Source: Candidatus Aminicenantota bacterium (GTDB lineage: Bacteria > Acidobacteriota > Aminicenantia > Aminicenantales > Aminicenantaceae). Taken from it: a stretch of DNA of 47,272 nucleotides. Shown piece after piece: positions 1-47,138 of the stretch. The stretch covers positions 1-47,272 of the forward strand of contig JADHWO010000013.1 of assembly GCA_016783445.1 (NCBI GenBank), given 5' to 3'. Below the pieces are notes generated by a model. That model searched no databases and had not been told where the DNA came from. It was given only the letters and a program-made list of their open reading frames with translations. The number at the start of each line of letters is the position of its first letter. The stretch's first letter is position 1. The position numbers and the translations under genes are program-made.

Positions 1-187
1 TCGTTTTTTCAGCCAACTTGAGAAGTAAGCCTTTAATGGATAAAACATGAAAAGTGTAAACAAAAATGATAATATAAAAAGGTCCTCAATGCACCTTAAA
101 CAAGGCTGTTTTTTGTCCAAACAATGGGGAGAGGCTCAGGTCAAAATGATCAATTCCTTCTTAAAAACCTTATTTATTCCTATATAT

Positions 188-192
188 GGAGG
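188..192 (+). promoter_or_regulatory. Ribosome binding site deciding the start of the NHL/Ig giant protein
   Basis: GGAGG stands 7 nt before the ATG at 200, and that ATG is followed immediately by a typical Sec signal peptide. The reading frame is open upstream to an ATG at 47, but the extra 51 residues are not signal-like and that ATG has no Shine-Dalgarno sequence, so 200 is the better start. A further in-frame ATG lies at 215. Confidence 0.8.
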
Positions 193-199
193 TATCAAA

Positions 200-3100
200 A
201 TGAAAGGCATCAAAATGAAAAAAAGTCTAAGTATTATTTTAAATTTGATCTTAATCTTTTCTTTTGTTGCACTTGGATATGCGGTAGAAGAGTATGAATT
301 TGTAAGCAAATGGACTCCGAACAGCAGCCCGAGAAGTATAGCTCTAGACAGCGAAGAAAATATTTATATTGCAGGTAACCAACGTGTGGAGAAATACACA
401 TCCAATGGAACCTTTCTCCTAAGTATTGAAAATCAAAAAAACAATGACGACTATAACATGTCTTCATGGGATATGTATGTAGCCATTGACAGTTCCGGCA
501 ATATTTATATTTCGTCCAGACAAGACCATAAGATATTCAAATTTGACTCAGGTGGAACTTTTATAACCAAATGGGGAAGCCAGGGAGATGGAGAAGGCCA
601 GTTTAATTCTCCTGAAGGGATAGCCCTGGACAGCGACGGGAATGTTTACGTCTGTGATTCCATGAATCACAGGATCGTCAAATTTGATTCTACCGGGACA
701 TTTATTGCCGCTTTCGGAACCGCTGGAAGTGAAAACGGCCAGTTTCAAAGTCCTGCTGCCATTGCTTTAGATGACTCAAACAACATTTATGTCACAGAGA
801 ACTGGAACTCCCGCGTTCAAGTATTAACTTCAGATGGAACTTTTATAACCAAGTGGGGAGAATGGGGAGAAGAAGATGGACAGTTTAATGAACCCAGAGG
901 AATTGCCCTTGATTTTGACGGGAATGTGTATGTGACTGACTCCCAGAATAACAGAATTACAAAGTTTTCATCAGACGGAACCTTTATAACCAAATGGGGA
1001 AGTTATGGAGATGACAACTATCATTTTGATGGACTGATAGATGTTGCAGTAGATTATGCCGGTAATGTTTTTGTTACGGATTGCCAGAATGGAAACTGGG
1101 ATAACCGGAGAATTATGAAGTATAGGCGATTGGGCACTCCTACAATTGATATAACAAATCCGGCTGACAGTGAGTTTTTAACCGGGTCAGTTACTATCCA
1201 AGCCACCGTGACCGTTCCGGATGGATTCACTCTTAGCAATGTTGAGTTTTATAAAGATGATACAAAACTCGGTGAAGATACAGCAGATCCTTTTGAACTA
1301 GCCTGGGACACAACAGCAGAAACAAACGGAGCTTACATAATCTGGATCATCGCCACAAACAACGAAGGAGCAAAATCAAAAGAAAAAATATCAGTAGTTG
1401 TGGCAAACGGCGATGCTGCGCCAACAGTTTCGATAACAGACCCTGTAGACCTGGAAGAAGTAAGAGGAACAGTTAGTGTTACAGCAGATGCCTCGGACGA
1501 TCTAGGGATCGATAAAGTTGAATTTTATATCCAAGGGATCTTAATGAGCACAGATGAAACATCCCCCTATGAATTCAGCTGGGAAACAACAGGAGAGGAT
1601 GACGGAGAGTGTGAAGTCAAAGTTGCTGCGTATGACACAATTGGTCAGTTTACAGAGGACACTATCAATGTAACAGTGGGAAATATTGAAGAATATGGAT
1701 ATATCAGCAAATGGCTCTCGGACAATCCGCGGAGCATTGCACTGGACAATGATGGATACCTATATGTTGCAGGAGGACACTGGGTATTAAAATATTCACC
1801 TACCGGAGAATTAATTTCCAGGATCGAGGATTTTGAAACTCAAGATTTTATGCTTTCCTGGAATATGAACGTAGCAATTGACAGCTCCGGGTATATTTAT
1901 GTCACGAGTCAGGAAAATAACAATATTATAAAATTTGACTCTGACGGAAATTATGTCACTAAATGGGGAACCATGGGCACCGGGAATAGTGAATTTAACT
2001 CACCGGAAGGTGTAGCTGTAGATAGTGAGGGTAACGTCTATGTCTGCGATTCAATGAATCACAGGATATCAATATTTGATTCTGAAGGAACCTTTATCGC
2101 TACTTGGGGAAGTGAAGGAAGTGGTAATGGACAGTTTTCCAATCCTATGGATATCGCTATCGACAGTTCCGGCAATATTTATGTCACCGAAGGTTGGAAT
2201 CATCGTGTCCAGGTCCTCGACTCAGAAGGGACATTTGTCAGAATGTGGGGAAACTGGGGTATTGAAAATGACCAGATGCGTGACCCGAGAGGAATAACGA
2301 TAGATAGTGAAGACAATGTTTATGTGGCTGATTCACAGAATCACAGGATCATGAAGTACTCATCTGAAGGGACATTTATCGCAAAATGGGGCACTCAGGG
2401 AAGCGGTGATCTGCAGTTTGATAATCCACATGACGTTGCAGTGGATTCTTCCGGAAATGTTTATGTCGCAGATATGTGGAACAACAGAATAATGAAATTT
2501 CGGTCGACCTGGCTCCCAACCATTGAAATAACAAATCCAGTTGATTACGCAATATTAAGCGATACAGTTTTGATTCAAGCCACTGCAGATAGTTCCATCG
2601 GAATCAGTAAAGTTGAATTCTATTTAAATGATACTTTATCATCTACAGACACTTCCTCTCCTTTTGAATACAGCTGGGATACAACATCGTCTTCAGACGG
2701 GACCTATATAATTAAAGCCATAGCCTATAACACAGAGAGCAAAACTATAGAAGCTGAGATAACTGTAATTGTGAACAATACTGGAGACGCAGTCCCTACA
2801 GTATCGATAACGAGTCCGGCAGATGGAGCGACTGTCCAGGGAGAGGTGACTATCGAAGTGGATGCCACCGATGATGTGGGAATCAATAAAGTAGAGTTTT
2901 TTGTCGACGGTATTCTGCTAGGTGAAGATTTGGAATCCCCTTATGAATACATCTGGAGCACAAGGTCATTAAAAGACGGGGATTTTAGCATAGAGGCTGC
3001 TGCCTATGACACACTTGGTCAAAAGGAAGAAACTAGCATCACTGTAACAGTGAGCAATGGAGAAGAGTTTGGATATTTAACCGGATGGGTCGCTGACAAT

Positions 3101-6100
3101 CCCAGAGGAATTGCTGTAGACAACAAAGGGTATGTTTATACGGCAGGTCAGCACAGGATAATAAAATTTACGACAAGTGGAACTTATGTTTTCATGATAG
3201 AAGAACATGGGATGCAAGAATTTATGCTCTCATGGAGTATGCGGATAGCTGTTGATAGTTCCGGCAACATTTATGTTTCAAATCAAGACAACAATGAAAT
3301 AATAAAATTTGATTCAGTAGGAAATTATCTCACTAAATGGGGAAGTTTTGGAAGTGCCGACGACCAGTTCAACTGGCCTCAAGGCCTAACGGTAGATAGC
3401 GAAGGGAATATTTATGTTGCTGATGAACAGAACCACAGGATAGTCAAATATGACTCTGAAGGAAATTATCTAGCCAAATTTGGAAGCTGGCAGGGACCGG
3501 CTGATGGACAGTTTTCTAATCCCCAGGATGTTGCTGTTGACAGCTCCGGTAATATTTATGTTGTTGATTCCGGGAATAACCGTATTCAGGTTTTGAGCTC
3601 AGATGGAACGTTTCTAAGAGCATGGGGAAATATGGGGCAGGGAGATTATCAGTTTGACTGGCCTCGAGGAATTGCGCTCGATCCTGACGGTTATGTATAT
3701 ATTGCAGATTCGAATAATCACAGAATCGTGAAATATTCGCCCGAAGGATTATTTATTGCCAAATGGGGAAGCATGGGAAGTAGTGACCTTCAATTTCATA
3801 ACCCCAATGATGTTGCAGTGGATTCTGATTTTTATGTTTATGTGGCTGACTCTGACAACAACAGAGTTATGAAATACAGGTCCACATGGCTTCCAACAGT
3901 TGAAATAACAAGTCCAGAAAATAAAGCTATCGTCAGCAGCACAGTCACGATCAAGGCAGGTGCTGACAGCAGCATAGGAATCAGCAAGGTAGAATTCTTT
4001 ATTAATGGTACAAGTGTTGGTGAAGACACCTCCTTCCCTTATGAATACGAGTGGGATACAACAGCAGAATTGGATGGAACTTATACAATAACAGCTGTTG
4101 CCTCAAATGGAGAAGGTCAGACTAAAGAACATGAAATCACGCTGGTAGTGAACAACTCAGAAGATGAGGTCCCCACAGTCTCGATAACAGATCCAGTAGA
4201 AGAATCTAAAGTTCTGGGTACTGTGACTCTCAAAGCAGAAGCATCCGATGACATAGGAATCGACAAGGTTGAGTTCTACGTTCTGGATGAACTTCTGGGT
4301 ACGGATGAAGAATCTCCATATGAATACAGCTGGGATACACGAGTACTGGAAGATGGAGAATGTGAAATATCGGCTGTCGCTTATGACACTATCGGACAGA
4401 GTACAGAGACGAGTATCACAGTAATCGTCAAAAATGAGGAAGAATTTGAGTTTTTGGCAAACTGGAGCGCTGATAATCCCAAAGGAATAGATGTAGATAA
4501 AGATGGATTTATCTATGTCTCAGGCGGACACAGGATACTGAAGTATGCACCTGATGGAACTCCTGTTGCAAACATTGAGGACTGGCAAAGTGAAGAGTTC
4601 TGGTTCTCATGGAATATGCATATTGCCGTGGATAATTCAGGTAATATTTATGCTTCCTGTGAAGAAAATAACGAGATAATAAAATTTGATTCCAATGGAA
4701 CTTATCTCCTCAAATGGGGAAGCTTTGGAAGTGGAGACAATCAGTTTAACGGGCCACAAGGCTTAACTGTGGATAGTGAGGGTAATGTCTATGTCTGCGA
4801 TGCATGGAATAACAGAGTATTAAAATTTGATTCCGCAGGAAATTATCTCTTCAAATGGGGAACCTGGCAAGGCTGGGAAGAAGGACAGTTTACTGACCCG
4901 AGGGATGTTGCTGTTGACAGCTCCGGGAATATCTATGTGGTTGACAGCGGGAATGGACGTATTCAGGTGTTAGGTCCAGATGGAACGTTTATAAGAGCCT
5001 GGGGTACTTGGGGACAAGAAGATTATCAGTTTGACTGGGCTCAAGGAATCGGGATCGACTCAGAAGGCAACGTTTATGTCGCTGATACAAATAACAACAG
5101 AATCCAGAAGTACTCCTCTGAAGGCGATTTCCTTTCTAAATGGGGAACTATGGGAAGTGGTGATTATCAGTTCAATTTTCCAGGTGATGTTGCCGTGGAT
5201 TCTGACTTTAATGTTTACGTTGCAGATACCAATAACAACAGAATTGTTAAATTCAGATCAACATGGCTTCCTACAATTGAAATTATTACCCCCGGAGATA
5301 AAACTACAGTACTAGATACAGTAACAATTCATGTTGAAGCCGAAAGTGCGGTTGGGATCAGCAAGGTTGAATTTTTGATAGATGGAGTATTAGCTGGTGA
5401 AGACACATCTTCTCCTTTTGAATATGCTTGGGACACCACTACGTATTCAGATGGCCCGCATACAATAAAAGCAGTGGCCTATACATCAGGAGACCAGAGC
5501 GTTGAAGCTGAAATAACTGCGGTCGTAAACAACAGCGGAGACGAGGCGCCATTAGTGTCCATAACAAGTCCGTCAGACGGAGCGGTTGTGAGGAGCGAAG
5601 TCCTTATTGAAGCTGAAGCTTCAGATGATAATGGAATAGAAAAAGTTGAATTTTATATCGACGACAAACTTCTTGGTTCTGTTACGGAATCCCCTTATGA
5701 ATACACCTGGGATACTTTGATGGAATGGGAAGGAGATAAAGTCGTGGAAGTCAGGGCATATGATACGCTCGGCCAGAGTACAGCCGCGAGTATCACTGTA
5801 AGAGTTCTCAATACGGAAAAATACGAGTTTGCAATCGCGTGGAAAACAGAAGGATATGGACGTCCATGGGGTATTGCAGTGAACAACTATGACAATGTCT
5901 ATGTGACTTTCTGGGAAAGAATTGTGAAGTACACTCCGATGGGAAGTTACCTTTCAGAAATTGGTAATGAAGGAAGTGAAGAACTATACCGTTTAAGCGG
6001 TAATATGCGAATAGCTGTTGATGATTCCGGAAAAATTTACGTATCAGTTCGAGACAACAACGAAGTTATAGTTTTTGATTCTAATGGAAATTACCTCGAC

Positions 6101-9100
6101 TCAGGAGGAAACAAAGGAGAGGAAGATGAGAATCTAAACTGCCCGGAAGGTATAGCCATTGATAGTCAAGGAAATTGGTACATAGCCGATTCAGAAAACC
6201 ATAGAGTTATAAAGCTGGGACCTGATGGTTCCTTTATAAGCACATGGGGAGAACAGGGCTTTGAAGACGGAAATTTTCAGCATCTCCAGGATATTGCTAT
6301 AGATGATGAAGATAATATCTATGTGCTTGACTCCGGAAATAATCGTATTCAGGTTTTTGATACAGAAGGAACGTTTCTGAGGAAGTGGGGAGAATGGGGA
6401 CATGAGGACCACCAGTTTCAATGGGCTATGGGAATAGCTGTTGACAGTGAAGGTTGTATATATATCGTTGATACAGAAAATTGTAAGGTTGTGAAATTTT
6501 CACCCGAAGGTATGTTATTAGCCAGATGGGGAAACCGTGGATATGGCGATTACCAATTCGAGAATCCTACTGATATTGCAGTTAATTCCTCAGGACATGT
6601 TTATGTTGTTGACGAGGGTAACCAGAGAGTAGTGAAATTTAAGACAGGTGGAGCAGCCAGCGTTGAGATAACAAATCCAATCGAAAACGACACAATCATG
6701 GATACAGTAACAATTCAAGCCACAGCTGAAAGTGACTTTGGTATCAGTAAAGTTGAATTCCTTATCGATGAAGAAAGTTTAGGTGAAGACACAACTTCTC
6801 CTTATGAATACGAATGGGATACTACATTATCTCTAAACGGGTCCCATGAGATTAAAGCTGTTGCCTATAATGTTGACGGCAATACTGCAGTAGATACAAT
6901 CTCGGTGCTCGTCAATAATGGAGGAGATGAGGCCCCACAGGTATCAATCACATATCCAGCGGATGGAGCGGTCATCAGGGGAACAAAGAGTATTATTGCG
7001 GATGCATCGGATGACCTGGGAATCGATAAGGTCGAATTTTATGTTGAAGGAACTCTTCTGGAAACGGATATGTCTTCCCCCTACACATACACCTGGGATA
7101 CATCTACTGTTGTGGATGGCTACAGGGAAGTAAAAGCTGTAGCATATGACACGATCGGTCAGAAGACATGGGATAGCATAACGGTTATCATAGACAATGC
7201 GAACAATATCTTCTCCATTGATTTTACTGGAGCATCTGTAATCTTTATTAATTCTGACAGTAAATTGAGGAAAATCGACCTGAAGGGGAATATCAGTGAA
7301 GTTATCTCGTCAGACCCGGATGTTTCCCAGTTTCAATTCAGCCCGGCAGGAGAACTATATGTCTTCTTTAAGCATCCATTACAACTCCTGGATAACAGCA
7401 GCTACTTATTGGTGAAGGTTGATTATACAACAAATGAATATGCAGGGATTGACAAAGACCTGTCGTCTCTGGAGTGGAACACACAGAGTGTCAGTCCAAA
7501 CCTCCAGTTTGATGCACTGGGCAACATCTATTATCTGGCAAGAGATCATGAAGGAAAGTTGATATTGAGGAAGTATACTGACGAGAACAACATTGAGGAT
7601 TTAATCAATGAAAACATCACAATCCACCACTGGCATGTAACAGAAGATGGGACAGTCATTATGGGAGGAGTGACAGAGTCAACAAGCCAGAGATGGCTGA
7701 GAAAGCTGAATCCCGACAATTCGCTGGAGAACCTGGCAGAACCGTCAGAGGTCGGGTGGATCGCACAATTCCCGGACGACAGAGTTTATGTCGGGATGAG
7801 GATCTCTAACTCAGGCTGGGACCACGGGGTATACAAACTGTCAGCGGATCTGGGACGTATAGACAGCGAAGCGAAAAAGATTCCGTATATTGGGCATTCC
7901 GGAGAAGATTACACGCCGCTTTATGATGCAAATCAGCTTGCAGAGGGACATTCACAAGATTACTGTCAAGGATTTACAGACTCGGCAGGTGCATACATGT
8001 TGAATTATGAGGTGGATGATTCTACAAACAACGTATATGGTCTGATGGCATCGTGGTGGGATGAATACAGAACTGTTGTAAAACTGTACCCGGAACCGGA
8101 AGTAATCGAACCACAACTTATTGAACGAGTAACACTGATGGAAGAGACGATGGGTCAATTAGTCATGGCAGGACTCAAGGAAGGAGTGAACAAGCTGGTG
8201 CTCTACAGCGTATTAACCGGATTCGAGATCAATTTGATGTATAGTAACATTGAGATCTATCATCTGGACGTTCTTTCCAATGGCAATATTTTGTTTGACG
8301 GATTAAATTTTGCTGATAACACATATGTTGTAGGCATGTTCGAAGTTGCTGCAGGCGCATCGCCCTCAGGCGGGATAAGAGCCCTTACTTATGGTGGATA
8401 TACGGAACTGGCTCAGCTGGGAGGAAAGCCGGTCAGTTTTGGTGTCCTTGAAGGAACGGGCGAAGCAGCAGGAGTTGCAGTAGAGATAGCCTCACCGTCT
8501 GACGAGGCGCATGTAAAAGGAACAGTAAGGATAAAAGCTGTAGCCATAGCTCAAACAGGAGTTACTAAGGTTGAGTTCTACGTGGATAACGAATTAAAAG
8601 AGACAGACAGCACCTCCCCTTATGTATACAAATGGGATACAACAACCTTCACTGAAGGCACTCACACCATAAAGGTAACAGCATATGACGTAGAAGAGAA
8701 AACAGCAGAAGATGAAGTTACAGTTACTGTGAATAATTCAACTTCACCTGGAGAGATTGATATAAGCGAAAGCGAGCTTTACTTTGGTGCGGCTGCTGGA
8801 GGCAGCTCGACAGGCTCTCAAGTCATCACCATTGACCATACAGGAGGCCTGGCGCTTAGCTGGACAGCAACTCCATCTGAGAATTGGCTGCAGGTTACAC
8901 CTACCAGTGGAACAGGAGCTGAAAAAATAACTGTTTCTGTCACTACAACCGGATTATCAGAAGGAATACATACAGGAACTATAACCATAGCAGATTCAAA
9001 CGCAACAAATTCGCCTCAGACTATAAATGTGACCCTGGAAATATATGGTTCAGCCTCAATCCAGGCGCCATTCGGCTCCATTAATACGCCTATAAACGGC

Positions 9101-10243
9101 ACTACAGGAGTAGCAGGAGCAATACCTGTGTCTGGTTGGGCACTTGATGACTTAGAAGTAACCAGGATTATTGTGTGGAGAGAAGCTGTTGGAAGTGAGG
9201 AGACATCAGATAATGGCCTGGTTTATATAGGAGATGCTATACAGGTAGAAGGAGCAAGGCCAGATGTTGAAGAGGATTATCCCGAGTATCCATTAAATTA
9301 CAAAGCAGCTTGGGGATACATGCTGCTGACGAATTATCTACCAAATCAAGGAAATGGCACTTACACGATTCGTGTAGTCGCCGAAGACAGGGAAGGAAAC
9401 AGCAGTGAGCTAGGGACAACAACAATAACCTGTGATAACACAAGTGACATCAAGCCCTTTGGAACGATTGATACACCAACGCAGGGAGGAGAAGCTTCAG
9501 GTAGTGATTTTATTAACTTTGGCTGGGCTCTGACACCGCAGCCGAATTACATCCCGGATGATGGATCAACAATCACAGTACTAATAGATGGAGAGGAAGC
9601 CGGAAATCCTGTGTATAACCAGTACAGGTCAGATGTTGCTGGACTCTTTACAGGATATGCAAACAGTGATGGAGCTGTGGGATATTTTTACATCAACACA
9701 ACAGAATACATAAATGGAGAGCATACAATTGCCTGGAGTGTGGAAGATAGTGCAGGAAGTACAGCCGGTATAGGAACAAGGTACTTTACAATACTCAATA
9801 CACAAGCAGCAGGTTTCCTACAATCAGGAATGAAGGGTCGAAGAGTTGAACATCATACTCCATACTCGCTTGAATCTATGTATAGCTTACCAAGTAGTTT
9901 TGAACCTGTTAAAATTTTAAGAGGATTCAAGAGACACTCTAGGCCTGAAACAGTGCTGGTTGATAATCTTGGAATCGTCAACATAGAAATAAGAGAAGTT
10001 GAGAGAGTAGCGGTTGATCTTGGCAAATGCGTAGACTACAAAGGTTATATGATAGTGGGCAATGAACTTAGACCTCTTCCCATTGGCTCAACCCTGAACA
10101 TGCAGAAAGGAACATTCTTCTGGCTGCCAGGACCCGGATTTATCGGCGAGTATAATCTTGTATTCCTCGTTCAAGACGAAACTGGATTAAAAAGAAGAAT
10201 AAACACCAAGATAAAGATTTTACCGAAGTTCAGTATCTTTTAA
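200..10243 (+). CDS. Giant secreted NHL-propeller / bacterial Ig-like repeat protein
   Basis: Predicted 3347-residue exported protein, probably surface-attached or extracellular; substrate unknown. It begins with a Sec-type signal peptide (KK followed by a hydrophobic run ending near ALGYA). Residues 30-2333 are five copies of a roughly 459-residue cassette. Each cassette has six NHL blades (repeating G-x-F-x-x-P-x-x-I/V-A-V/L-D ... G-N-I/V-Y-V-x-D-x-x-N-x-R-I), which would close a six-bladed propeller, then two Ig-like domains of the Big_7 type (V-E-F-Y-x-D ... S-P-Y-E-Y-x-W-D-T ... A-Y-D). Residues about 2334-2755 are a divergent propeller-like region, then come one more Big_7 domain (about 2760-2846), a BACON-like domain (about 2853-2949), two further Ig-like domains and a C-terminal beta-rich domain. 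I see no LPXTG, PEP-CTERM or other sorting tail. NHL and Ig folds usually bind proteins or carbohydrates; a role in adhesion or surface scaffolding is inference. It precedes the polysaccharide gene run but is separated by 307 bp and a hairpin. Confidence 0.88.
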   Translation: MKGIKMKKSLSIILNLILIFSFVALGYAVEEYEFVSKWTPNSSPRSIALDSEENIYIAGNQRVEKYTSNGTFLLSIENQKNNDDYNMSSWDMYVAIDSSGNIYISSRQDHKIFKFDSGGTFITKWGSQGDGEGQFNSPEGIALDSDGNVYVCDSMNHRIVKFDSTGTFIAAFGTAGSENGQFQSPAAIALDDSNNIYVTENWNSRVQVLTSDGTFITKWGEWGEEDGQFNEPRGIALDFDGNVYVTDSQNNRITKFSSDGTFITKWGSYGDDNYHFDGLIDVAVDYAGNVFVTDCQNGNWDNRRIMKYRRLGTPTIDITNPADSEFLTGSVTIQATVTVPDGFTLSNVEFYKDDTKLGEDTADPFELAWDTTAETNGAYIIWIIATNNEGAKSKEKISVVVANGDAAPTVSITDPVDLEEVRGTVSVTADASDDLGIDKVEFYIQGILMSTDETSPYEFSWETTGEDDGECEVKVAAYDTIGQFTEDTINVTVGNIEEYGYISKWLSDNPRSIALDNDGYLYVAGGHWVLKYSPTGELISRIEDFETQDFMLSWNMNVAIDSSGYIYVTSQENNNIIKFDSDGNYVTKWGTMGTGNSEFNSPEGVAVDSEGNVYVCDSMNHRISIFDSEGTFIATWGSEGSGNGQFSNPMDIAIDSSGNIYVTEGWNHRVQVLDSEGTFVRMWGNWGIENDQMRDPRGITIDSEDNVYVADSQNHRIMKYSSEGTFIAKWGTQGSGDLQFDNPHDVAVDSSGNVYVADMWNNRIMKFRSTWLPTIEITNPVDYAILSDTVLIQATADSSIGISKVEFYLNDTLSSTDTSSPFEYSWDTTSSSDGTYIIKAIAYNTESKTIEAEITVIVNNTGDAVPTVSITSPADGATVQGEVTIEVDATDDVGINKVEFFVDGILLGEDLESPYEYIWSTRSLKDGDFSIEAAAYDTLGQKEETSITVTVSNGEEFGYLTGWVADNPRGIAVDNKGYVYTAGQHRIIKFTTSGTYVFMIEEHGMQEFMLSWSMRIAVDSSGNIYVSNQDNNEIIKFDSVGNYLTKWGSFGSADDQFNWPQGLTVDSEGNIYVADEQNHRIVKYDSEGNYLAKFGSWQGPADGQFSNPQDVAVDSSGNIYVVDSGNNRIQVLSSDGTFLRAWGNMGQGDYQFDWPRGIALDPDGYVYIADSNNHRIVKYSPEGLFIAKWGSMGSSDLQFHNPNDVAVDSDFYVYVADSDNNRVMKYRSTWLPTVEITSPENKAIVSSTVTIKAGADSSIGISKVEFFINGTSVGEDTSFPYEYEWDTTAELDGTYTITAVASNGEGQTKEHEITLVVNNSEDEVPTVSITDPVEESKVLGTVTLKAEASDDIGIDKVEFYVLDELLGTDEESPYEYSWDTRVLEDGECEISAVAYDTIGQSTETSITVIVKNEEEFEFLANWSADNPKGIDVDKDGFIYVSGGHRILKYAPDGTPVANIEDWQSEEFWFSWNMHIAVDNSGNIYASCEENNEIIKFDSNGTYLLKWGSFGSGDNQFNGPQGLTVDSEGNVYVCDAWNNRVLKFDSAGNYLFKWGTWQGWEEGQFTDPRDVAVDSSGNIYVVDSGNGRIQVLGPDGTFIRAWGTWGQEDYQFDWAQGIGIDSEGNVYVADTNNNRIQKYSSEGDFLSKWGTMGSGDYQFNFPGDVAVDSDFNVYVADTNNNRIVKFRSTWLPTIEIITPGDKTTVLDTVTIHVEAESAVGISKVEFLIDGVLAGEDTSSPFEYAWDTTTYSDGPHTIKAVAYTSGDQSVEAEITAVVNNSGDEAPLVSITSPSDGAVVRSEVLIEAEASDDNGIEKVEFYIDDKLLGSVTESPYEYTWDTLMEWEGDKVVEVRAYDTLGQSTAASITVRVLNTEKYEFAIAWKTEGYGRPWGIAVNNYDNVYVTFWERIVKYTPMGSYLSEIGNEGSEELYRLSGNMRIAVDDSGKIYVSVRDNNEVIVFDSNGNYLDSGGNKGEEDENLNCPEGIAIDSQGNWYIADSENHRVIKLGPDGSFISTWGEQGFEDGNFQHLQDIAIDDEDNIYVLDSGNNRIQVFDTEGTFLRKWGEWGHEDHQFQWAMGIAVDSEGCIYIVDTENCKVVKFSPEGMLLARWGNRGYGDYQFENPTDIAVNSSGHVYVVDEGNQRVVKFKTGGAASVEITNPIENDTIMDTVTIQATAESDFGISKVEFLIDEESLGEDTTSPYEYEWDTTLSLNGSHEIKAVAYNVDGNTAVDTISVLVNNGGDEAPQVSITYPADGAVIRGTKSIIADASDDLGIDKVEFYVEGTLLETDMSSPYTYTWDTSTVVDGYREVKAVAYDTIGQKTWDSITVIIDNANNIFSIDFTGASVIFINSDSKLRKIDLKGNISEVISSDPDVSQFQFSPAGELYVFFKHPLQLLDNSSYLLVKVDYTTNEYAGIDKDLSSLEWNTQSVSPNLQFDALGNIYYLARDHEGKLILRKYTDENNIEDLINENITIHHWHVTEDGTVIMGGVTESTSQRWLRKLNPDNSLENLAEPSEVGWIAQFPDDRVYVGMRISNSGWDHGVYKLSADLGRIDSEAKKIPYIGHSGEDYTPLYDANQLAEGHSQDYCQGFTDSAGAYMLNYEVDDSTNNVYGLMASWWDEYRTVVKLYPEPEVIEPQLIERVTLMEETMGQLVMAGLKEGVNKLVLYSVLTGFEINLMYSNIEIYHLDVLSNGNILFDGLNFADNTYVVGMFEVAAGASPSGGIRALTYGGYTELAQLGGKPVSFGVLEGTGEAAGVAVEIASPSDEAHVKGTVRIKAVAIAQTGVTKVEFYVDNELKETDSTSPYVYKWDTTTFTEGTHTIKVTAYDVEEKTAEDEVTVTVNNSTSPGEIDISESELYFGAAAGGSSTGSQVITIDHTGGLALSWTATPSENWLQVTPTSGTGAEKITVSVTTTGLSEGIHTGTITIADSNATNSPQTINVTLEIYGSASIQAPFGSINTPINGTTGVAGAIPVSGWALDDLEVTRIIVWREAVGSEETSDNGLVYIGDAIQVEGARPDVEEDYPEYPLNYKAAWGYMLLTNYLPNQGNGTYTIRVVAEDREGNSSELGTTTITCDNTSDIKPFGTIDTPTQGGEASGSDFINFGWALTPQPNYIPDDGSTITVLIDGEEAGNPVYNQYRSDVAGLFTGYANSDGAVGYFYINTTEYINGEHTIAWSVEDSAGSTAGIGTRYFTILNTQAAGFLQSGMKGRRVEHHTPYSLESMYSLPSSFEPVKILRGFKRHSRPETVLVDNLGIVNIEIREVERVAVDLGKCVDYKGYMIVGNELRPLPIGSTLNMQKGTFFWLPGPGFIGEYNLVFLVQDETGLKRRINTKIKILPKFSIF
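287..7198 (+). repeat. Five tandem coding cassettes of about 1.38 kb (NHL block + two Ig domains)
   Basis: The recurring junction, an acidic pair followed by aromatic residues (EEYEF, EEYGY, EEFGY, EEFEF, EKYEF), marks cassette starts at 287, 1688, 3062, 4439 and 5816, with the fifth ending about 7198. Spacings are 1401, 1374, 1377, 1377 and 1383 nt. Cassettes 2-4 are the most alike; 1 and 5 are more diverged. Nucleotide similarity is visible (for example recurrent gacagttccggcaatattta and tcaccaaatgggg-like strings), so the array arose by duplication and may recombine. Confidence 0.85.
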
Positions 10244-39474: not shown

Positions 39475-39758
39475 AAATAAACGGTTCTCTTCCATTTTGT
39501 GTGGGCAAAACATGTCTTGATAGATTAATAGAAAGTGTTCGGGGATGGATGAAGCGACCTTTGAAGATTTAGCCTCCATGAATCGCTCTTCGAGGAAACC
39601 CGACAAAGTCGGGCGGCGAGTATGTTTGAGCGGAGCGAGTTACGCAGCCGCCAAGAAGAGCGATGAAGGGATGGCGTGAAAAATCTGAACGGGAGCGAGA
39701 CCATTCACGAATACTTATTGATTAATACCCACACAAAATGGAAGAGAACCAATTAAAC
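39475..39758. mobile_element. 268-bp MITE-like palindromic element, copy 1, with 8-bp duplication
   Basis: Element 39483-39750, flanked by AAATAAAC (39475-39482) and AATTAAAC (39751-39758), an 8-bp target duplication with one mismatch. Terminal inverted repeats run 23 bp perfectly (GGTTCTCTTCC ... TGTGTGGG). The interior folds back too: ATTAAT and GTGTTCG pair with CGAATAC and ATTAAT on the right arm, ATCGCTCTTC (39582-39591) pairs with GAAGAGCGAT (39655-39664), and a small hairpin CCCGAC-AAA-GTCGGG is at 39599-39613. No open frame of note. Ends and 8-bp duplication recall ISL3-family elements; that is inference. It lies between speD and the M1-like gene, both on the minus strand. Nothing else is visible in 39299-39474. 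Confidence 0.85.
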
Positions 39759-46854: not shown

Positions 46855-47138
46855 GATAAATCGGTTCTCTTCCATTTTGTGTGGGTAAAACATGTCTTGA
46901 TAGATTAATAGAAAGTGTTCGGGGATGGATGAAGCGACCTTTGAAGATTTAGCCTTCCTGAATCGTTCTTCGAGGGAACCCGACAGAGTCGGGTGGCGAG
47001 TATGTTTGAGCGGAGCGAGTTACGCAGCCGCCGAGAAGAGCGATGATGGGATGGCGTGAAAAATCTGAACGGGAGCGAGACCATTCACGAATACTTTCTG
47101 ATTAATACCCATACAAAATGGAAGAGAACCGATAAATC
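46855..47138. mobile_element. 268-bp MITE-like palindromic element, copy 2, with perfect 8-bp duplication
   Basis: Element 46863-47130, flanked on both sides by GATAAATC (46855-46862, 47131-47138), a perfect 8-bp target duplication. Same length as copy 1 with 12 substitutions and no indel (about 95.5% identical). Several differences keep pairing: ATCGTTCTTC (46962-46971) still pairs with GAAGAGCGAT (47035-47044) through one G-U, and the small hairpin changes only in its loop (AAA to AGA) and flank. Right-arm TTTCTGATTAAT pairs with left-arm ATTAATAGAAA better than in copy 1. It occupies most of the spacer after the GltB-like gene. Confidence 0.88.

Follow-up and report, generated by a model that had tools for sequence, protein, structure and literature searches.

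A palindromic MITE with ISL3-type ends and a conserved structured core in an Aminicenantes genome

What moves the 268-bp palindrome at 39483-39750 of the window (the whole stretch of 47,272 nucleotides analysed here), and does its interior matter? The original prediction described this locus as a MITE with 23-bp perfect terminal repeats, and that description holds: its coordinates are correct and the right repeat is exactly complementary to the left (Table 1). The near-perfect 8-bp target duplication that had been claimed is likewise present, since AAATAAAC and AATTAAAC agree at seven of eight positions. Full-length palindromic folding, the third feature read from the letters, is pronounced: as a single DNA strand the element folds end to end at -64.1 kcal/mol, as compared to -28.7 +/- 3.6 kcal/mol for dinucleotide shuffles (z = -9.9), none of 200 of which folds as well. 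With up to three mismatches allowed, the window has four sites for the terminal repeat, where chance would give 0.00. Bacterial MITEs are defined as non-coding elements of 70-300 bp that are bounded by terminal inverted repeats of 15-30 bp (PMC3733652), and the element, with 268 bp, 23-bp repeats and a codon pattern that is not coding-like, conforms to this definition, its variants reaching 538 bp. Elsewhere the window contains, at 47-10243, a reading frame of 3398 residues with many NHL/beta-propeller repeats and bacterial Ig domains.

Table 1. Features of the element and of its second copy in the window.
Feature	Position	Strand	Remark
Left target duplication AAATAAAC	39475..39482	.	7/8 identity with right copy
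Left terminal inverted repeat GGTTCTCTTCCATTTTGTGTGGG, 23 bp	39483..39505	+	Equals ends of host-genome ISL3 IS
Left spacer, terminal repeat to core	39506..39537	+	
Structured core, model R1, 184 positions, 51 pairs	39538..39721	+	Conserved order-wide
Tip motif TGTTTGAGCGNAGCGAGTT, hairpin apex	39623..39641	+	
Right terminal inverted repeat, 23 bp, exact complement of left	39728..39750	-	
Right target duplication AATTAAAC	39751..39758	.	
Copy 2 left target duplication GATAAATC	46855..46862	.	Centre of REP palindrome
MITE copy 2 of the window, 95.5% identity	46863..47130	+	Inserted in REP axis (GGGTTTGATAAATCAAGCCC)
Copy 2 right target duplication GATAAATC	47131..47138	.	Exact match to left

The original prediction was to be given up if there were no other copies or if copies lacked duplications, and neither is the case. 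A search of the 2.9-Mb host genome (a Candidatus Aminicenantes-type MAG in 153 contigs) with the element returned 77 alignments, among which are about 14 full-length or near-full-length copies at 88-100% identity. Among 22 copies with both ends the flanking octamers are identical in 12, differ by one mismatch in six, by two in three and by three in one; 18 of the 22 thus carry 8-bp duplications with at most one mismatch, the copy at 39483-39750 being a one-mismatch case. The element therefore exists as the many dispersed copies with target-site duplications by which a MITE is recognised, and it is near certain that 39483-39750 is a mobile element. About nine longer variants of 391-538 bp (L016-L019, L021-L024, L026) carry a different module (GAGCGAAGCCTGAAACCGAGCAGC...) in place of the hairpin centre, in two orientations or arrangements, and in the 500-538 bp variants part of this module looks inverted and extended. 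One copy (L010, host C103:6296-6563) is flanked by octamers, GATGAATC and GATTCATC, that are mutually reverse-complementary, which suggests either that copies have recombined with each other or that an inversion has taken place at a palindromic site.

It had been suggested that an ISL3-like transposase elsewhere may move the element, and a single ISL3 transposase was indeed found in the host genome, inside an IS whose two ends agree with those of the MITE over their first 25-28 bp. Its 401 residues match PF01610 (1.3e-71), PF13542 (3.8e-18) and PF14690 (5.1e-13), so that the parent IS encodes the ISL3 DDE transposase together with the ISL3 HTH and zinc-ribbon DNA-binding domains of this family. 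On contig C25 the transposase is followed by the terminal repeat at 1137-1157, while contig C19 has the beginning of this gene together with the terminal repeat. The 1329-bp host IS is a reconstruction from these two contigs, which overlap by 139 identical bases, and because it was pieced together in this way an intact copy in the host genome is putative. Complete homologues of 1328 bp, with a transposase that is 78% identical, are present in two sister genera (G002, G023). The homologues L229 and L230 have near-identical ends and 8-bp duplications (TTTTAATT and AGTTTAAT), and the host IS junctions are consistent with the duplication GATAAATC. The inverted ends and 8-bp direct duplications of an ISL3 IS are thus in place, and the resemblance in ends and duplication length that had been noticed from the sequence of the MITE extends to an actual ISL3 IS. 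The terminal repeat itself, with up to three mismatches, has 56 sites in the host genome, two of them being the ends of this transposase element, and none in the reversed control. In several core-bearing genomes, all draft assemblies (for example G004 and G032), no matching transposase was found, and a literature search retrieved no paper on ISL3 MITEs with 8-bp duplications.

The explanation that we favour, with a probability of roughly 90%, is that 39483-39750 is a MITE that is mobilised through its 23-25-bp ends by an ISL3-family transposase and whose interior is a conserved structured core. In the scheme we propose, the ISL3 transposase is predicted to recognise the 23-25-bp terminal repeats of the non-coding 268-bp element, which would move by transposition of the cut-and-paste type, with 8 bp of target being duplicated. 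The transposase would be supplied in trans by the 1329-bp ISL3-family IS, and the MITE may be the means by which a structured element of greater age is spread.

The core interior is conserved, non-coding, structured and not derived from the IS, and it also occurs between other ends. Its pairs were predicted on an alignment that had not been fitted to structure. Compensatory double changes are seen in 29 of the 51 predicted pairs and 96.3% of cells are paired, values that none of 500 shuffles reaches; structures slid along the core alignment are 36-54% paired (maximum 53.5%) and have at most 14 pairs with double changes. The two strands are not equivalent, the folding energy being -55 kcal/mol for the plus strand versus -25 kcal/mol for the minus strand, and the single-sequence energy is lower on the plus strand in 35 of 36 cases. 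With pairs predicted on both strands, G-T to A-C ratios of 41:19 and 46:13 were obtained, and this excess of G-T over A-C on the plus strand is unexpected for a double-stranded cruciform. The compensatory changes could partly reflect intra-element correction within palindromes; however, the asymmetry between the strands and the conservation of unpaired segments make it unlikely that such correction accounts for everything. We infer that the core works as a single strand, that a structured RNA is likelier than ssDNA, and that the plus strand is the acting one. A 45-residue stop-free frame is present in most core copies. A protein-coding core was rejected, since variation is greatest at codon position 2 and the synonymous fraction, 0.30, is close to the random value of 0.25. 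Rfam gave no match at gathering score in the window, and the weaker hits were at chance level (E-value 2.5-4) and all outside the element.

The core may be an element in its own right, a structured RNA or an ssDNA hairpin, for which the ISL3-type ends are one among several acquired vehicles. Its distribution favours such independence: blastn with the core interior detected it in 41 of 60 relatives, and a covariance model of the core found it in 33 of 38 genomes of the family, with up to 68 matches per genome. A class-wide sample, run under stricter filters, placed the core in several families of the same uncultured order and in none of the sampled genomes from the class's other families outside the order. 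The core is also present, with an ISL3-like right end, in a record assigned to Zixibacteria bacterium SM1_73 (L095), which reflects either inter-phylum transfer or a misassigned contig. The surroundings of the core speak for its independence as well, since within this one host genome it is bounded in at least four ways: by the ISL3 ends, by type-B ends (GGAAGCATCTTTTTTGCCGTGATG and similar), by GGCTCTTCTCCC ends and by AAGGTTTTGGG surroundings. The type-B elements form a MITE-like family of their own with apparent duplications of about 9-12 bp (L025, L027-L030, L220, L222, L223). However, the boundaries and duplications of the type-B, GGCTCTTCTCCC and AAGGTTTTGGG types are less well delimited than those of the ISL3 type, which weakens the case for acquired vehicles. 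The orientation of the element is a further point in favour: relative to two co-directional neighbours it lies antisense in 20 cases and sense in four (p = 0.0015; 43 copies, two genomes), although with copies that are partly related this antisense placement is suggestive only. As for a replication-strand bias in one genome (G012), the skew of the examined stretches was without clear pattern. We consider an independent core to be slightly short of an even bet, and it refines, rather than excludes, the explanation by a MITE with an ISL3 mobiliser.

A bolder extension sees in the 184-nt core a structured RNA or ssDNA not described before, one that predates the transposon ends, switches vehicles and belongs to a class of hairpins found across phyla; we regard this as doubtful, if possible. 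Under this scenario its two conserved modules, the tip UUUGAGCGNAGCGAGUU and a 5x1 internal loop GUNAA/A, would be common to hairpins of Firmicutes, Saccharibacteria and viral contigs. At least 80 viral contigs matched the tip motif TGTTTGAGCGNAGCGAGTT, whereas two one-base variants matched none; a fixed-gap version of the pattern, unlike the plain pattern, gave no viral matches. A longer form of the tip matches a Saccharibacteria, a Tissierellia, a Diplocloster and an unassigned bin. The motif caps unrelated hairpins both in viral contigs and in other phyla (L117-L196, L091, L100, L101, L103). Of the 22 non-redundant contexts, about eight have a much better fold with their own flanks than with swapped ones, one of these (L187) being probably coding; others do not fold. 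The internal loop GUNAA/A is the commonest of 256 loops of the same shape around the tip motif, occurring in four of 26 contexts with the next at one or fewer. Given that this loop was picked from the Aminicenantes alignment and that two of the four contexts carrying it are related, its co-occurrence with the tip is a lead, not a result. GC-GNA-GC, which the tip UUUGAGCGNAGCGAGUU contains, is an unusually stable DNA mini-hairpin. In six viral contigs (L128, L142, L154, L156, L160, L169) a conserved stretch ends at the tip motif and is followed by variable sequence, as if the motif marked an element end or junction. The flanking ORFs listed for hairpins that carry the tip motif in other phyla show no apparent common gene neighbour, and an exact-string literature search for the motif returned only unrelated primer-type matches.

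Could the repeat instead be mainly a transcription terminator or mRNA-stability hairpin that has spread for regulation? Its intergenic placement and its orientation bias relative to neighbouring genes would fit such a role, as would a weak terminator-like site on the minus strand. However, a regional scan for such sites yielded two where 1.1 are expected, and a terminator has no need of the conserved unpaired segments, so that a primarily regulatory repeat seems improbable to us.

A simpler history, in which the MITE is what internal deletion has left of the ISL3 IS and its interior is unimportant, draws on the match between its ends and those of the IS and on their equal duplication length. 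IS-like ends with the same duplication length are typical of many MITEs. However, likeness between IS and MITE is confined to 25-34 bp at each end, and because nothing further is common to the two the MITE is not a simple internal deletion of the IS. A dispensable interior is also difficult to reconcile with one that covaries, recurs across the genomes of the family and is found within other ends. We therefore hold a deletion relic to be very unlikely and retain the MITE with a conserved core.

The sites into which the element inserts provide a further clue. When empty sites were rebuilt by joining the flanks and removing one duplication, eight of 22 matched the REP palindrome GGGTTTGATNNATCAAACCC with up to five mismatches, as compared to five of 42,000 background 20-mers, and both IS junctions also lie within a REP-like site. 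While MITE insertion favours A+T-rich 8-mers, the axis of the REP palindrome is the strongest target preference of IS and MITE alike. In the host genome the palindrome GGGTTTGATNNATCAAACCC has 123 sites with up to two mismatches, and the GTAG-tagged consensus GTAGGGGTTTGATNNATCAAACCC has 163 with up to three, the reversed control having none. GTAG REPs are defined as high-copy palindromes of 20-40 bp with an unpaired GTAG at one end (PMC3733652), which is what GTAG-GGGTTTGATNNATCAAACCC is. These REPs frequently occur in clusters with a spacing of 35-80 bp. No RAYT gene flanked by GTAG-GGGTTTGATNNATCAAACCC REPs was found in the host genome, and the sole Y1 transposase gene found (contig C51) is flanked by different hairpins (CCCCGCAGCAGAGCTGCGAGG). 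Y1 transposition is not known to leave target duplications. That the element belongs to a REP/REPIN system moved by a Y1 (RAYT-like) transposase, as its tight association with GTAG-tagged REPs and the presence of one Y1 gene might suggest, was therefore rejected and is scarcely conceivable, because its copies have 23-bp inverted ends and 8-bp duplications, lie within REPs rather than being made of them, and do not share the hairpin that flanks the Y1 gene. Neither the preference for the REP axis nor the conserved and structured nature of the core had been noticed in the first reading.

A MITE with an ISL3 parent is by itself a clean but ordinary case, from a poorly studied phylum. MITEs usually keep their ends while their interior drifts. 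Here the pattern is reversed: it is the ends that differ, and the interior that has been preserved throughout an order. Two ideas thereby become open to test, namely that transposons can serve a structured RNA or ssDNA element as exchangeable carriers, and that ISL3 transposases can home to REP palindromes and so spare genes. With ISL3-family IS and MITEs the element shares the 8-bp duplications, ends that start with GG and a transposase with PF01610, ISL3 HTH and zinc-ribbon domains, whereas its conserved and structured interior, unrelated to the IS, and its strong preference for the REP axis set it apart from ISL3-family MITEs. The bcr1 repeat is short, mobile-looking and non-coding with strong secondary structure, and the element resembles it and other structured MITEs in this general description. 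Unlike bcr1, which is found in the Bacillus cereus group and listed among MITEs (PMC3733652), the core described here spans an order and has several kinds of ends. The target palindrome has the unpaired GTAG at one end in common with GTAG-tagged REP families (PMC3733652), yet in contrast to those families the REP is the target here, the element is separate from it and no RAYT gene was found beside these REPs. Insertion of IS into REPs, including at the axis of palindromy, is known for members of the IS3 (IS1397, ISKpn1, ISPsy8), IS110 (IS621) and IS4 (ISRm22) families (Tobes and Pareja, 2006, PMC1525189). Like ISRm22, the element inserts at the axis of the REP palindrome; unlike in that set of REP-targeting IS, where ISL3 goes unmentioned, it is an ISL3 IS and its MITE that both do so here.
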